A stretch of DNA of 62,497 bases, from the NCBI GenBank assembly GCA_000739535.1, contig DF820464.1:933184-995680 (forward strand). The letters run 5' to 3'. This DNA is from Candidatus Vecturithrix granuli (GTDB lineage: Bacteria > Moduliflexota > Moduliflexia > Moduliflexales > Moduliflexaceae). Below are positions 14,412 through 57,276 of the stretch, in pieces. Below the pieces are notes generated by a model. The model did no database searches and was not told the origin of the DNA. It worked only from the letters and a program-made list of their open reading frames with translations. The first letter of the stretch is position 1; every line of letters begins with the position of its first letter. A program made the translations under genes and the position numbers.

Positions 14412-15821
14412 ATGTTTGTACAGCAATTTTTTGTGAAAGGGATTGCGCATAGCTCGTATTTGCTTGGAGGAAACAGAAATTGTGCAATTGTCGATCCGCG
14501 CCGCGATATTCAGATTTATCTGGATGCGGCGAAGGAGATGGGCATGCAGATTACGCATATTTTAGAAACCCACCTCCACGCGGACTTCATATCCGGCCAT
14601 CTCGATCTGGCCAAAGTCACAGGTACGAAAATTTACGCCCCGGGCAAGTGCGATTTTGAGTATGTTGAGGTGACAGAAGGAGATACATTTTCCATTGACG
14701 ACCTCGAAATCAAAGTCATTGAAACTCCCGGGCATACGCCTGAACACATTACATACATTGTCACTGACAGGGTGCGCGGTTCGGAGCCAGCGTGCATTTT
14801 CTGCGGCGATACGTTATTCGTCGGCGATGTCGGACGTCCGGATTTGTTTCCGGGCATTGCGGAAAAATTGGCGGAAAAACTTTATCATTCGCTGCATGAG
14901 AAGTTATTGAAACTGCCGGATTTCTGCGAGGTCTATCCGGCTCATGGGGCAGGGTCGCTTTGTGGCCGCGCAATGGGCGCGAAACGCAGCAGCACCATCG
15001 GGTATGAAAAACTGTATAATGCCGCGCTTCAGATCAAAGATGTCAAAGAATTCATCGCCTCACTTACGACGGACATGCCGCCTGCACCGGATCATTTCAG
15101 CCGCTGCAGCGCGATCAATGCTAAAGGTCCTTCGTTAGTGGATGATCTGCCTGTCTTAGTTCCGCTGACGCCGCCGGAATTCAAAGCGCTTTCCGAACAA
15201 GAACACGTCATTGTGCTGGATACCAGGGATTTTGCGTCTTTTGGCGGGTTACACGTCCCCGATTCATATCATGTTGACTTCGGCGGAAATTTTGCGACCT
15301 TTGCGGCCTGGGTGCTTCCGCCGCAAACTGACCTGCTGCTGGTCAGCGAAAGTCCGCAGCAAGCCCATGATGCTGTGACCTGGCTGCGGCGGGTCGGACT
15401 TGACCGGGTAATAGGCTATCTGGAGGGGGGAATTTTTGAATGGGGGAAACACGGCCTGGAAACCGATCATGTTCATCAACTCTCCACCTTTGCCTTACAC
15501 GAGAAAATTTCCAAAGGGGAACAACTGACCCTGGTTGATGCGAGGTCTCCCAAAGAATTCGACGCTCTGCACATTGAAGGCGCAATCAATATTCCCTCGC
15601 CGGATTTGCGCACCCGCTACAAAGAACTGACCCCGAATCTGCCCACTGTCCTGATTTGCGGCACAGGACACCGGTCGAGCCTGGGATGCAGCATTTTGAA
15701 ACAGCACGGTTTCAAAGACGTATATAATGCGGCCGGCGGCATGACTGCCTACAGCGCGTCCGGTTTTTCGCCGGAGTGCCCGATGTGTGTAGGCCCGCAC
15801 GGCCCGGCGTTTTTAGGATAA
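14412..15821 (+). CDS. MBL-fold hydrolase with two rhodanese domains (persulfide dioxygenase-like)
   Basis: A 469-residue cytoplasmic protein. Residues 1-245 are a metallo-beta-lactamase fold of the ETHE1/persulfide dioxygenase kind: THLHADFISGHLDLA supplies metal ligands, followed by ETPGHTPEHITY, FCGDTLFVGDVGRPDL and YPAHGAGS. Residues about 255-355 form a rhodanese domain without an active-site Cys; residues about 365-465 form a second one with the catalytic loop ICGTGHRS. Likely role: oxidation or transfer of glutathione or protein persulfide sulfur. The two YeeE-like genes that follow suggest a thiosulfate/sulfane-sulfur module. AAGGGAGGG precedes the start at good spacing. Confidence 0.9.
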   Translation: MFVQQFFVKGIAHSSYLLGGNRNCAIVDPRRDIQIYLDAAKEMGMQITHILETHLHADFISGHLDLAKVTGTKIYAPGKCDFEYVEVTEGDTFSIDDLEIKVIETPGHTPEHITYIVTDRVRGSEPACIFCGDTLFVGDVGRPDLFPGIAEKLAEKLYHSLHEKLLKLPDFCEVYPAHGAGSLCGRAMGAKRSSTIGYEKLYNAALQIKDVKEFIASLTTDMPPAPDHFSRCSAINAKGPSLVDDLPVLVPLTPPEFKALSEQEHVIVLDTRDFASFGGLHVPDSYHVDFGGNFATFAAWVLPPQTDLLLVSESPQQAHDAVTWLRRVGLDRVIGYLEGGIFEWGKHGLETDHVHQLSTFALHEKISKGEQLTLVDARSPKEFDALHIEGAINIPSPDLRTRYKELTPNLPTVLICGTGHRSSLGCSILKQHGFKDVYNAAGGMTAYSASGFSPECPMCVGPHGPAFLG

Positions 15822-15891: not shown

Positions 15892-16404
15892 ATGAGTTGG
15901 TTCACAATGGAAACCTGGCCGCCCTACGTGGTTGGCATTGGCATTGGGATATTAAGCTGGTTCACATTTTTACTTTCCGACAAGCCGCTCGGATGTTCAA
16001 CCACTTTTGCCCGTCTCAGCGGCATGATTGAAAAATATTTCCGCGGCAGAGAGGTGGAAGAAAAAGCCTATTACAAAGAAATCCCTCCGGTGATTGACTG
16101 GCAATTCATGCTGGTAATTGGGATTGTGATCGGCGCGTTTTTGTCGTCAATTCTCTCTGGGACCTTTCAATTTGTTCTAACTCCCTCACTCTGGGTCGAA
16201 CGTTTTGGACCAGGCTCAGGGTTGAGCCGCTTTATTGTCTCGCTGCTCGGGGGAATTCTGATGGGAATTGGCTCGCGCTGGGCCGATGGTTGCACCAGCG
16301 GGCACGGCGTCAGCGGCACTTTACAGATGGCGATTGGCAGTTGGGTTTCGGTAGCCTGTTTTTTTATCGCCGGAATTGTAACGGCAGTGATTATTTACCC
16401 TTAA
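15892..16404 (+). CDS. YeeE/YedE-family sulfur transporter, N-terminal half protein
   Basis: A 170-residue inner-membrane protein with about five helices. The YeeE/YedE (sulf_transp) family includes thiosulfate channels such as TsuA; in many bacteria the transporter is made of two half-size proteins. The half-motif with a conserved Cys is present twice: LSDKPLGCSTTFARLSG and GSRWADGCTSGHGVSGT, the latter being the typical 'G.r.a.GCtsGh' pore loop. It has a strong AAAGGAGGA site before ATG 15892. The second half follows 25 bases downstream. Confidence 0.9.
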   Translation: MSWFTMETWPPYVVGIGIGILSWFTFLLSDKPLGCSTTFARLSGMIEKYFRGREVEEKAYYKEIPPVIDWQFMLVIGIVIGAFLSSILSGTFQFVLTPSLWVERFGPGSGLSRFIVSLLGGILMGIGSRWADGCTSGHGVSGTLQMAIGSWVSVACFFIAGIVTAVIIYP

Positions 16405-16429
16405 ACTTGAAACACAGGAGGTGGTCATC

Positions 16430-16987
16430 ATGCTCAAAAACCTTCACGGCAACAAACGCTTACAATTAAAGTTCGGTCTGGCGATGGGCATTATTTTTGG
16501 GTTCTTACTCCAAAAAGGCGGCGTCACCAACTACGATGTCATTCTAAAACAATTACTCCTGAAAGATTGGACAGTGGTCAAAATCATGTTGTCAGCCATT
16601 ATCACCGGTACGCTCGGCGTACACTGGCTTAAAAGCGTGGACTACGCCAAACTACACCCTAAAGCCGGAGGAATTGGAGTCAATGTGATCGGTGGCCTGA
16701 TTTTCGGCGTGGGCTTTGCCACCCTGGGCTATTGCCCCGGCATCGTCGCCGGTGCAATCGGGCACGGGGCCTTAGATGCCCTGTTCGGCGGATTGATCGG
16801 AATTACGCTCGGTTCCGGCATCTTTGCCGCCTTGTATCCGAAATTGAACCAGAGCATTTTAAACCACAAAACTTTTACCCATCAAACGCTGCCGGAATTA
16901 TTCAATGTTGACCCCTGGGTGGTCGTCATTCCGGTCGTGATGGCGCTGACCTTCATTTTGTGGTTACTGGAATATCTGGGATTGTGA
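16430..16987 (+). CDS. YeeE/YedE-family sulfur transporter, C-terminal half protein
   Basis: A 185-residue membrane protein forming the other half of the split YeeE/YedE transporter. Contains KFGLAMGIIFGFLLQKGGVTNYDVI and the pore-loop Cys in GVGFATLGYCPGIVAGAIGHGALDA. ATG 16430 follows AGGAGG at 9-base spacing; the GTG at 16421 lies within that site and is rejected. It probably works with the preceding protein to import thiosulfate or a related sulfur compound for the MBL-rhodanese enzyme upstream. Confidence 0.9.
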   Translation: MLKNLHGNKRLQLKFGLAMGIIFGFLLQKGGVTNYDVILKQLLLKDWTVVKIMLSAIITGTLGVHWLKSVDYAKLHPKAGGIGVNVIGGLIFGVGFATLGYCPGIVAGAIGHGALDALFGGLIGITLGSGIFAALYPKLNQSILNHKTFTHQTLPELFNVDPWVVVIPVVMALTFILWLLEYLGL

Positions 16988-16995
16988 TATACGCA

Positions 16996-17070
16996 GGAGT
17001 ACGAAAGCTCTGCTTTCGCTGTCAGTTTTCCAGCACCTACTCACGTATAAAAGTAGAACTTTTGCACTCC
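16996..17070. repeat. Family A palindrome (copy 5, degenerate)
   Basis: GGAGTACGAAAGCTCTGC ... and AAAAGTAGAACTTTTGCACTCC. The two arms have drifted more than in other copies. It marks the end of the sulfur gene group. Confidence 0.7.
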
Positions 17071-17150
17071 AGCACAACAACAAAAAATTTATAAATTTTT
17101 CTTTACATTTTTGTCCATCTGCTGTTACTAAGGTTAATAGTGCAAGAAAA

Positions 17151-17177
17151 CACCGGGTTTCTTGAAGAAACCCGGTG
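17151..17177. repeat. CACCGGGTTTCTTGAAGAAACCCGGTG hairpin, family D (copy 1)
   Basis: A perfect palindrome with 12-base arms (CACCGGGTTTCT / AGAAACCCGGTG) followed by TTTAAAT. It belongs to the AAACCGGGTTT hairpin family that recurs from 34 to 47 kb; here it could terminate transcription coming from the sulfur genes. Confidence 0.7.
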
Positions 17178-17224
17178 TTTAAATGTTGCTGCAAGATTTC
17201 TTCAACTGATTGTTCGCGTAAAAC

Positions 17225-17417
17225 ATAGAAGGAGCCGCGGAGTGAGAAACTAAGCATACGAAACCGGAATATCGCATAGACTGAAATGAACCCTGGCAGG
17301 GTTCGTACACTGATATTGCGTCGGATGTCGGGTTTCGTATGGGTATTTTCCCCGCGGCTCGACGTCTAACGTTTATTTTGCGAAAGAAGCCGCGGATATT
17401 TTCCGCGGCTTTTGTTT
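17225..17417 (+). promoter_or_regulatory. Structured 5' leader of the ABC-F gene (putative attenuator or riboregulator)
   Basis: Nested perfect helices are visible. P1: GAGCCGCGG (17232-17240) with CCGCGGCTC (17352-17360). P2: CATACGAAACC (17255-17265) with GGTTTCGTATG (17331-17341). P3: AATATC (17268-17273) with GATATT (17312-17317). P4: GAACCCT (17288-17294) with AGGGTTC (17298-17304). The terminator's 5' arm AAGCCGCGG (17387-17395) could instead pair with the 3' strand of P1, so P1, an antiterminator and the terminator are mutually exclusive. A minimal upstream frame, AAGGAG then GTG AGA AAC TAA (17242-17253), sits in the 5' side. I recognise no known riboswitch class. Function as an attenuator is inference from structure and position. 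Confidence 0.6.
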
Positions 17418-17420
17418 TTT
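17387..17420 (+). terminator. Intrinsic terminator in the ABC-F leader
   Basis: AAGCCGCGG, loop ATATTTT, CCGCGGCTT, then TTGTTTTTTC. It lies only about 15 bases before the start codon and just ahead of the AAGGAGAA ribosome binding site, which is where an attenuator terminator is expected rather than an end-of-operon one. Confidence 0.8.
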
Positions 17421-17435
17421 CAGAAGGAGAATTCT

Positions 17436-18965
17436 ATGGGACAGCCATACATCAGATTTCAAAATGTCACCTTTCGCTATGAAGCAGCGACAACCACGCT
17501 TTTTCAGGATATTTCCCTGCACGTTCCTCGCGGTTGGTTGGGGATTGTGGGTGCCAATGGGGCCGGGAAAACTACGCTCTTACGCCTGGCGACCGGCCTC
17601 TTAGAACCGGACAGCGGCTCTATCGATCGACCTCCGTTAACAGTCTATTGTCCGCAGCGTACAGATGACCGCCCCGAATATTTTCAGGATTTTCTGGTTT
17701 CGACGACCAAAAACGCCTACATTATCAGGGATCGGTTACATATACAGGAAGATTGGAACGAACGCTGGCAAACCTTATCTCATGGTGAGCGCAAACGCGC
17801 GCAAATTGGAACCGCGCTCTGGCGAGAGCCGGAAGTGCTGGCGATTGACGAACCGACCAATCATATTGATAGTGAAGCGCGCGCGTTAATTGCGGCCGCG
17901 TTACATACCTTTCGCGGCGTCGGTTTGCTGGTGAGCCATGATCGCGATCTGCTGGACTCACTCTGCCAGCAATGTCTGTTTGTCGAACCTCCCACCGTGA
18001 TTACCAGACCCGGCGGCGTAACCAAAGGGCTACAGATCGACCGCGAAGAGCAACAGTCTTTACAAAGGCAACAACTCATAAAAAAACGAGAATATACACG
18101 ACTGCACCGTGAAGCCGTCAAACGTCGGGAACTTGCGCAGCAGGCCGATAAACGTGTTTCCAAACGCGGCATTGCTAAAAAAGATCATGACGCCAAAGCC
18201 AAAATCAATCAGGCGCGCGTGACCGGCAAAGATGCGGTCGGCGGGAAATTACTGCACCAACTCGATGGACGTTTGCAGCAGGCACGGCAGCAAGTTGAAA
18301 ATATTCGGTTCAAAAAAGAATATACGCTGGGTATCTGGCTTCCGGCCGCGCGGTCGTCCCGCGACGTGCTTTTGCACCTTCCGGCCGGATCGCTTGCCTT
18401 AGGCGGGCAAAAACAGATCAGGTTCCCTGAATTGTTTGTGACCCCCACCGACCGCATTGCGTTGATTGGTCCCAACGGAACGGGCAAAAGCACGCTTATC
18501 CGGCATCTGGTACCACAAATCAATGCGCCGCAAAAACATATTACCTACGTACCGCAGGAAATAGAGGCGCAGCAGTCTCGCGAAATCTTAGCGCAAGTAC
18601 AGCGTTTGCCACACGAACAACTCGGGTTTTTGATGACCGTTATCAGCCGCTTAGGCTCACGCCCGCAACGACTCTTAGAAAGCAGCATCCCCAGCCCGGG
18701 GGAAACTCGTAAACTCTTGCTGGCCCTGGGTATGACCCGCGCACCGCATATCATCATCATGGATGAACCGACCAATCATATTGATCTGCCATCCATCGAA
18801 TGCCTGGAACAGGCCTTGGCCGAATGTCCCTGCTGTTTGCTGCTGGTCAGCCATGACCGCCGTTTTTTACAGGCTCTTACTCAAAAAACCTGGGAGATCA
18901 GAAAAGGGACAGGTGCAGAGCAGGACTGCGTCCTGCAAATTCGGTTAGGACAACAAATTTTGTAA
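17436..18965 (+). CDS. ABC-F family ATPase
   Basis: A soluble protein of 509 residues with two ABC domains and no membrane segment; ABC-F proteins act on the ribosome, some giving resistance to ribosome-targeting antibiotics, others being translation factors. First domain: Walker A GANGAGKTT, signature LSHGERKRAQIG, Walker B EVLAIDEPTNHID. Basic linker rich in K/R (about residues 195-290). Second domain: GPNGTGKST, degenerate signature SPGETRKLLLALG, IIMDEPTNHID. It is shorter and more divergent than EttA or Uup. ATG 17436 follows AAGGAGAATTCT. Regulation by the leader immediately upstream is likely, which favours an antibiotic-responsive role. Confidence 0.9.
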   Translation: MGQPYIRFQNVTFRYEAATTTLFQDISLHVPRGWLGIVGANGAGKTTLLRLATGLLEPDSGSIDRPPLTVYCPQRTDDRPEYFQDFLVSTTKNAYIIRDRLHIQEDWNERWQTLSHGERKRAQIGTALWREPEVLAIDEPTNHIDSEARALIAAALHTFRGVGLLVSHDRDLLDSLCQQCLFVEPPTVITRPGGVTKGLQIDREEQQSLQRQQLIKKREYTRLHREAVKRRELAQQADKRVSKRGIAKKDHDAKAKINQARVTGKDAVGGKLLHQLDGRLQQARQQVENIRFKKEYTLGIWLPAARSSRDVLLHLPAGSLALGGQKQIRFPELFVTPTDRIALIGPNGTGKSTLIRHLVPQINAPQKHITYVPQEIEAQQSREILAQVQRLPHEQLGFLMTVISRLGSRPQRLLESSIPSPGETRKLLLALGMTRAPHIIIMDEPTNHIDLPSIECLEQALAECPCCLLLVSHDRRFLQALTQKTWEIRKGTGAEQDCVLQIRLGQQIL

Positions 18966-57162: not shown

Positions 57163-57232
57163 GCCCTTTGGGTAGGGTAGCAAGCTAGCGAGTTACTTAT
57201 ATTTATAAGCACTTTTCCAACAAGCCCCCTCC

Positions 57233-57266
57233 GAACCGGACGTGCAAGTTTCCAAGCATCCGGCTC
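57233..57266 (-). ncRNA. Group II intron domain V
   Basis: 34 nucleotides: GAGCCGGATGC / GCACGTCCGGTTC stem with the TGGAAACT-type tetraloop region and a two-base bulge. It is the catalytic heart of the ribozyme and fixes intron orientation. Confidence 0.9.
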
Positions 57267-57276
57267 TCCAGTGAGA

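Follow-up and report, generated by a model that had tools for sequence, protein, structure and literature searches.

A probable ribosome-mediated transcription attenuator upstream of an ABC-F gene of Candidatus Vecturithrix granuli, and the Met-basic-x upstream reading frames of its clade

The window analysed here is a 62,497-nucleotide stretch of Candidatus Vecturithrix granuli DNA (contig DF820464.1, assembly GCA_000739535.1). It contains an ABC-F ATPase gene preceded by a structured leader (17225-17435). Farther upstream are a metallo-beta-lactamase/rhodanese gene (14412-15821) and two adjacent half-length sulphur-transport (YeeE/TsuA-like) genes (15892-16987). A perfect 16-bp hairpin (17148-17180) separates the leader from the sulphur-transport genes and is probably the terminator of these genes. 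Over 8 nt, its arms, CGGGTTTC and GAAACCCG, match or complement 17329-17336, the region of the P2 3' arm listed below; on complementarity, this hairpin could base-pair with the leader, provided that one transcript carries both. No sigma-70-like promoter was found within 16960-17460. Downstream of the ABC-F gene, a frame at 19126-19440 matches sigma factors in their N-terminal part alone and is perhaps a broken gene. The features of the leader and the gene are as follows.

17229-17234, plus strand: Shine-Dalgarno (SD) AAGGAG of the upstream ORF (uORF), as read from the sequence; overlaps the P1 5' arm
17232-17240/17352-17360, plus strand: helix P1, 9 bp, perfect
17232-17240, plus strand: arm 1, the P1 5' arm GAGCCGCGG, 5' arm of the anti-antiterminator
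17242-17253, plus strand: uORF GTG AGA AAC TAA (Met-Arg-Asn-stop)
17255-17265/17331-17341, plus strand: helix P2, 11 bp, perfect
17255-17265, plus strand: P2 5' arm CATACGAAACC
17273-17276/17317-17320: weak inner helix
17286-17294/17298-17306, plus strand: inner hairpin, 9 bp
17331-17341, plus strand: P2 3' arm
17352-17360, plus strand: arm 2, the P1 3' arm CCGCGGCTC; 17352-17359 doubles as the antiterminator 5' arm
17387-17396, plus strand: arm 3, the terminator 5' arm; 17388-17395 is the antiterminator 3' arm
17387-17396/17402-17411: intrinsic terminator, extending to 17385-17413
17402-17411, plus strand: arm 4, the terminator 3' arm
17410-17420, plus strand: T-rich tail of the terminator, TTTTGTTTTTT
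17424-17429, plus strand: SD AAGGAG of the ABC-F gene, as read from the sequence
17436-18965, plus strand: ABC-F ATPase, 509 aa, ATG at 17436; separate clade, fold closest to the ARE-ABCFs

The initial annotation had described most of this layout, and its description was confirmed for the two perfect helices, the two inner helices, the SD-preceded frame between P1 and P2, the terminator directly upstream of the ribosome-binding site (RBS), and the repetition of the P1 5' arm in the terminator 5' arm. This repetition is a 13-nt direct repeat (92%) between 17229-17241 (uORF SD and P1 5' arm) and 17384-17396 (terminator 5' arm). A 14-nt repeat (86%) is shared by the stretch running into the P1 3' arm and the terminator loop with its 3' arm; over the repeat regions (17341-17360 and 17394-17411), the terminator looks much like both P1 arms copied and joined together. 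The two repeats suggest that the attenuator might have originated by short duplication. Arms 1 to 4 carry an 8-nt core word, its complement, the word again and its complement, in that order. Among 3000 shuffles, none had the four-arm order with a word of 7 or 8 nt and 4 had it with a word of 6 nt, and the minimum free energy of the leader has a z-score of -6.4 (against 200 shuffles); the anatomy is thus beyond chance. At 17373-17378, in the interval separating arm 2 from arm 3, TTATTT conforms to the vmlR motif for NusG pausing (TTNTTT); so short a motif is unsurprising in a T-rich stretch.

The ABC-F protein belongs to a clade of its own. A scan of the genome contigs identified 80 loci, the first 22 of which (L012-L033; L032 partial, L018 without a usable start) were taken as the clade. 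These loci show 33-57% identity over the best segment; the others are nearly all other ABC-Fs with 24-30% identity, L052 being a short fragment with 55%. A maximum-likelihood tree built from 45 proteins gives the clade its own branch of 23 rows with a support of 100/100, apart from MsrE, MsrG, LsaE and the other ABC-F of the same genome. The protein scored below every curated cut-off among the 25 NCBIfam families listed (best 298.9, with 380 needed, NF000355); its CplR score is 148 bits against a cut-off of 780, so it is not a CplR. By NCBIfam scores and the tree, it was placed in none of the named ARE-ABCF subfamilies (Msr, Vga, Lsa, CplR, Sal and others). The 2019 ABCF survey, in the part available, counts 30 bacterial subfamilies (PMC6723617), and the clade could be matched to no single one of these. 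With whole-genome thresholds of E <= 1e-80 (1e-60 for the window's own phylum), 162 of the 297 genomes from the Coriobacteriales, the order of L026, carried the clade, as did 46 of the 241 from the order to which L018 belongs (Treponema). In Hydrogenedentota, the phylum of L012, the figure was 1 of 68, and in the window's phylum it was 1 of 4, this one being the window's own genome.

The AlphaFold model of the protein (mean pLDDT 88.4) has two ABC domains and a long helical linker, and ribosome-bound ARE-ABCFs are among its closest folds. The PDB matches include VmlR2 (first by E-value), VgaL, VgaA-LC, VmlR and LsaA (TM 0.74/0.76). EttA, YbiT and other housekeeping ABC-Fs are also matched, and the fold does not separate the two kinds. 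The gene is a probable ribosome-protection gene of the antibiotic-resistance type. PADLOC matches of the protein were taken as ATPase cross-matches.

Folding analysis located the switch differently from the initial annotation, which had held P1 and the terminator to be mutually exclusive. The pairings 1:2 (P1) and 3:4 (terminator) coexist in the lowest-energy fold of the full RNA; it is the antiterminator 2:3 that is incompatible with both. A ribosome at the uORF start codon was modelled by holding its footprint, 17227-17257, single-stranded. For the transcript to 17401, which does not yet include arm 4, the probability of P1 is 1.00 in the free RNA and 0.00 with this block, and that of 2:3 is 0.00 and 0.93, respectively. 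Control blocks of the same size at 17262-17292 or 17300-17330 gave 0.98-1.00 for P1 and 0.00 for 2:3. With a modelled stall at codon 2 or 3 (-15/+15 footprint), 2:3 reached only 0.18-0.19; the start codon is therefore the best stall site in this simple model, which would suit drugs that arrest initiation. In transcripts ending at 17260-17330, before arm 2, the uORF SD is unpaired with a probability of 0.56-0.98, varying with the assumed 5' end, and the start codon with only 0.30-0.34. In the full-length leader, the terminator stands at 0.99-1.00 at equilibrium with or without the ribosome block. Since it dominates at equilibrium despite the ribosome, the switch would have to work kinetically, like attenuators in general, with 2:3 forming ahead of the terminator and then persisting.

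The uORF was then compared across the leaders of the clade. The family comprises 94 loci, six of which were dropped as partial or without a usable start (L018, L032, L099, L137, L142, L154); 16 of the remaining 88 are second copies from the same genomes. Another 52 upstream stretches, all plus-strand matches, were added from the 162 and 46 genomes with hits. The upstream set, including the window, contained 125 leaders, or 115 after removal of near copies. An SD-preceded uORF of the form Met-Arg/Lys-x(-x)-stop was found in 64 of these 115 non-redundant leaders, window included. In 200 rounds of dinucleotide shuffling, the count per 115 averaged 2.0 and never exceeded 7. Before other ABC-Fs (58 loci, 7 dropped for want of a start codon), the pattern was found in 3 of 51 (Fisher p 1.5e-10). 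By group, it is present in 51 of 67 leaders of the Coriobacteriales and kin, 10 of 37 of the Treponema group, and 3 of 11 of all others; 6 of these last 11 have some SD-preceded three-codon uORF.

The most frequent peptides are MRIR (17), MKN (7), MRL (5), MRIC (4) and MRN (3), followed by others. Met-Arg-Asn, the peptide of the window, is also found in L017 and L193; the uORF of L013 reads MTR. In the Coriobacteriales leaders L109-L137 and L174-L213, the four-codon GTG CGC ATT/ATC CGC TAG (MRIR) recurs in one set, and other sets have the three-codon MKN, MRF and MKF. Seven codons are used at position 2 (CGC 25, AAG 17, AGA 7, AGG 6, CGG 5, CGT 2, AAA 2), and 63 of the 64 uORFs end in TAG or TAA; together, these observations point to selection on the peptide. 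Genome-wide, the uORF pattern had a second match (L227), beside permease genes of the other strand; this was taken as chance, because the reversed control pattern gave three matches against two.

A layout of this kind has been described before. The initial annotation had assigned it to no known class; it matches the three-codon uORF attenuators of vmlR and cplR as these are described in the available parts of PMC9226507 and PMC10201436. The window has an SD-preceded uORF of about three codons (17229-17253) and an intrinsic terminator with a T-rich tail between uORF and gene (17385-17413). By prediction, the uORF region pairs with a downstream partner that can also pair with the terminator 5' arm. 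The window attenuator thus fits this known kind rather than a new class.

In the vmlR leader of Bacillus subtilis, a uORF Met-Ile-Asn lies in SL-1, the anti-antiterminator, followed by an antiterminator and an intrinsic terminator; the switch depends on arrest during initiation, and induction was tested (PMC9226507, available part). The window has the same three-codon uORF in the anti-antiterminator region, an antiterminator excluding the terminator, and an ABC-F gene downstream, and arrest at initiation is proposed here as the signal as well. However, the uORF SD of vmlR precedes SL-1, whereas that of the window is partly inside P1. The vmlR leader, as far as described there, also has an extra RBS-hiding hairpin and NusG-dependent pausing; no separate RBS-hiding hairpin was seen in the window. 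The two leaders share no sequence visible to Rfam or DNA searches, and their ABC-Fs belong to different clades.

The cplR leader of Clostridioides difficile has a uORF MRI (consensus MR[I/M]), and its induction was tested; the uORFs of VmlR2 (MK[L/Q]) and LsaA (MAGN) are given in the same available text (PMC10201436). Like the window, cplR has a Met-Arg-x uORF, a hairpin over the uORF, and a terminator before the gene. The terminator stem of cplR additionally covers the main SD, and attenuation of translation is sufficient there; in the window, the terminator stops short of the RBS. According to the sections available of PMC9226507 and PMC10201436, the hidden main RBS is a second layer in vmlR and cplR, unneeded for transcription attenuation. 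A short uORF also controls the ABC-F gene in are5sc of Streptomyces coelicolor (uORF MLV and a predicted MRS; induction tested) and in tiaA. In these systems, lincosamide, streptogramin A or pleuromutilin arrests the ribosome at the start codon, and the uORF RBS overlaps the antiterminator. They differ from the window in encoding ARE5 proteins of actinomycetes, and the tiaA uORF has nine residues (PMC12421871, as far as available).

Three lines of evidence support attenuation: the uORF peptide is conserved across the clade, the switch is predicted to follow ribosome occupancy, and the layout is that of vmlR. The leader is very probably a ribosome-mediated transcription attenuator of the ABC-F gene, and the ribosome-dependent control proposed at the outset is well supported. 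From this arrangement we infer the following course of events. With no inhibitor present, a ribosome would translate the three-codon uORF and depart; arm 1 would then pair with arm 2, P1 serving as the anti-antiterminator, and arm 3 would be left free for arm 4. Formation of 3:4 would end transcription at about 17413-17420. An inhibitor arresting ribosomes at the first codon, most likely of the lincosamide, pleuromutilin or streptogramin A type, would keep the ribosome on the GTG and mask arm 1. Arm 2 could then pair with the newly made arm 3, and the terminator would come too late to form. The ABC-F gene would be transcribed by read-through and translated from its own nearby RBS; its product would protect the ribosome, and the switch would close again. 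Attenuators of the Erm/MsrD type have longer leader peptides, sensed in the exit tunnel together with macrolides. They also switch the RNA by ribosome stalling on a leader ORF; exit-tunnel sensing was rejected for the window, since three codons are too short.

The basic second residue might instead be the sensor itself, with the uORF reporting general translation failure or arginine/lysine charging. Among 73 leaders, 26 of the 51 SD-preceded ORFs of 2-4 codons start with Met-Arg and 6 with Met-Lys, in keeping with such a sensor. However, the basic codons are mixed, a lone basic codon would sense starvation poorly, and the regulated gene is an ABC-F, probably of the ribosome-protection kind. 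The uORFs of the same form in cplR and vmlR2 belong to drug-resistance genes, according to the available part of PMC10201436. Sensing of this sort is very unlikely.

It was also considered that there is no switch at all: P1-P2 would be a stable 5' hairpin, the terminator would dampen expression constitutively, and the mini-ORF would be there by chance. The equilibrium dominance of the terminator, whatever the ribosome state, is in line with this. So are the nearest relatives, which do not reproduce the layout and count as evidence against attenuation: the closest, L012, is without an SD-preceded mini-ORF, and L013 has a terminator at the same place, yet gave a negative result in the same switch test (0.97 free, 1.00 blocked). 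Chance is contradicted by the shuffled four-arm order and by the family-wide excess of the uORF, and this explanation has a slim probability.

The window leader is a single copy in its own genome. In 59 related genomes, no leader-wide DNA match was found, and two weak matches cover the terminator part only; across these and its own genome, no alignable homologue was found. The inner domain is not common to the relatives' leaders, many of which share the mini-ORF. A ligand-sensing riboswitch, with P1, P2 and the inner helices as aptamer and 2:3 as its antiterminator, would account for the multi-helix domain enclosed by P1, the long P2 and the inner hairpin, but is very unlikely given the single copy, the Rfam search, in which no family reached its gathering score and the matches below threshold were mostly terminator-like, and relatives that share the mini-ORF rather than the domain.

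Ribosome-mediated control appears to be read out in different ways within the clade. Consensus folding of the largest Coriobacteriales leader group (MRIx, 30 sequences) gave 0 pairs, probably because these leaders are too diverged to align. Double-sided changes were found in 8 of 14 pairs of the MKN group (14 sequences), 5 of 28 of TrepL (6), 3 of 32 of MR3 (4), and 0 of 26 of MRF (3). Across 39 leaders, a block on the uORF raised the accessibility of the main RBS by a mean of 0.139, against 0.026 for blocks elsewhere. The rise was at least 0.10 in 23 of the 39 by printed values, and direct pairing between the uORF region and the main RBS was significant (p<0.05) in only 9 of 39, mostly short ones. 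In L025-L027, TGCATCGA at the RBS has TCGATGCA, directly behind the uORF stop, as its pairing partner; the partners in L023 and L133 are AGACATCC and GGATGTCT. Leaders of the MRL group, all from the Treponema order except L209 (Coriobacteriales), pair the end of the uORF with a segment farther downstream; judged by eye from the alignment, this segment can also pair with a third one that otherwise covers the gene's GGAGG.

In the window leader, the main RBS accessibility is 0.31 free and 0.39 with the uORF blocked, a small rise of 0.08; the uORF region shows no significant direct pairing to the main RBS (p 0.38), and no stable separate hairpin hiding the RBS was found in the centroid. A terminator-like hairpin is present in 5 of the 39 leaders, and the switch is predicted in three of these (L015, L159 and the window), but not in L013 and L124. 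The readout thus differs, being a terminator in the window and RBS hiding in many relatives. On these models, the window leader represents the transcription-type readout within its clade, where control through translation seems to be common.

The clade with the Met-basic-x uORF spans Coriobacteriales, relatives of Treponema, Planctomycetota, the window's phylum and others, and is otherwise uncharacterised. No report on the uORFs of this ABC-F clade was found in searches of the open PMC literature. The uORFs of cplR and vmlR2 have the same residue pattern, but belong to other ABC-F subfamilies. A tentative generalisation, which we do not yet favour, is that Met-Arg/Lys-x might be a minimal drug-responsive stall peptide, of which the clade keeps the basic second residue and swaps codons and readout. 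If this is true, drug arrest at or just after initiation would have a sequence preference that has been used repeatedly by evolution. On the attenuator reading itself, ribosome-mediated ABC-F control, described in the papers cited for Firmicutes and actinomycetes, would extend to a separate clade in several other phyla. Gut bacteria are among the carriers (the 162 of 297 sampled Coriobacteriales genomes), and inducible intrinsic resistance would be predicted in them. A tripeptide conserved across unrelated readouts may serve as a natural experiment on lincosamide or pleuromutilin arrest versus the second codon, and the dependence of arrest on this codon is a question called for in the available text of PMC10201436. 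The wider pattern, with one clade in several phyla, a Met-basic-x uORF and two readouts, is more interesting than the window attenuator alone.

Elsewhere in the window, a group II intron domain (Rfam RF00029, 63.4 bits) lies on the minus strand at 57172-57268.
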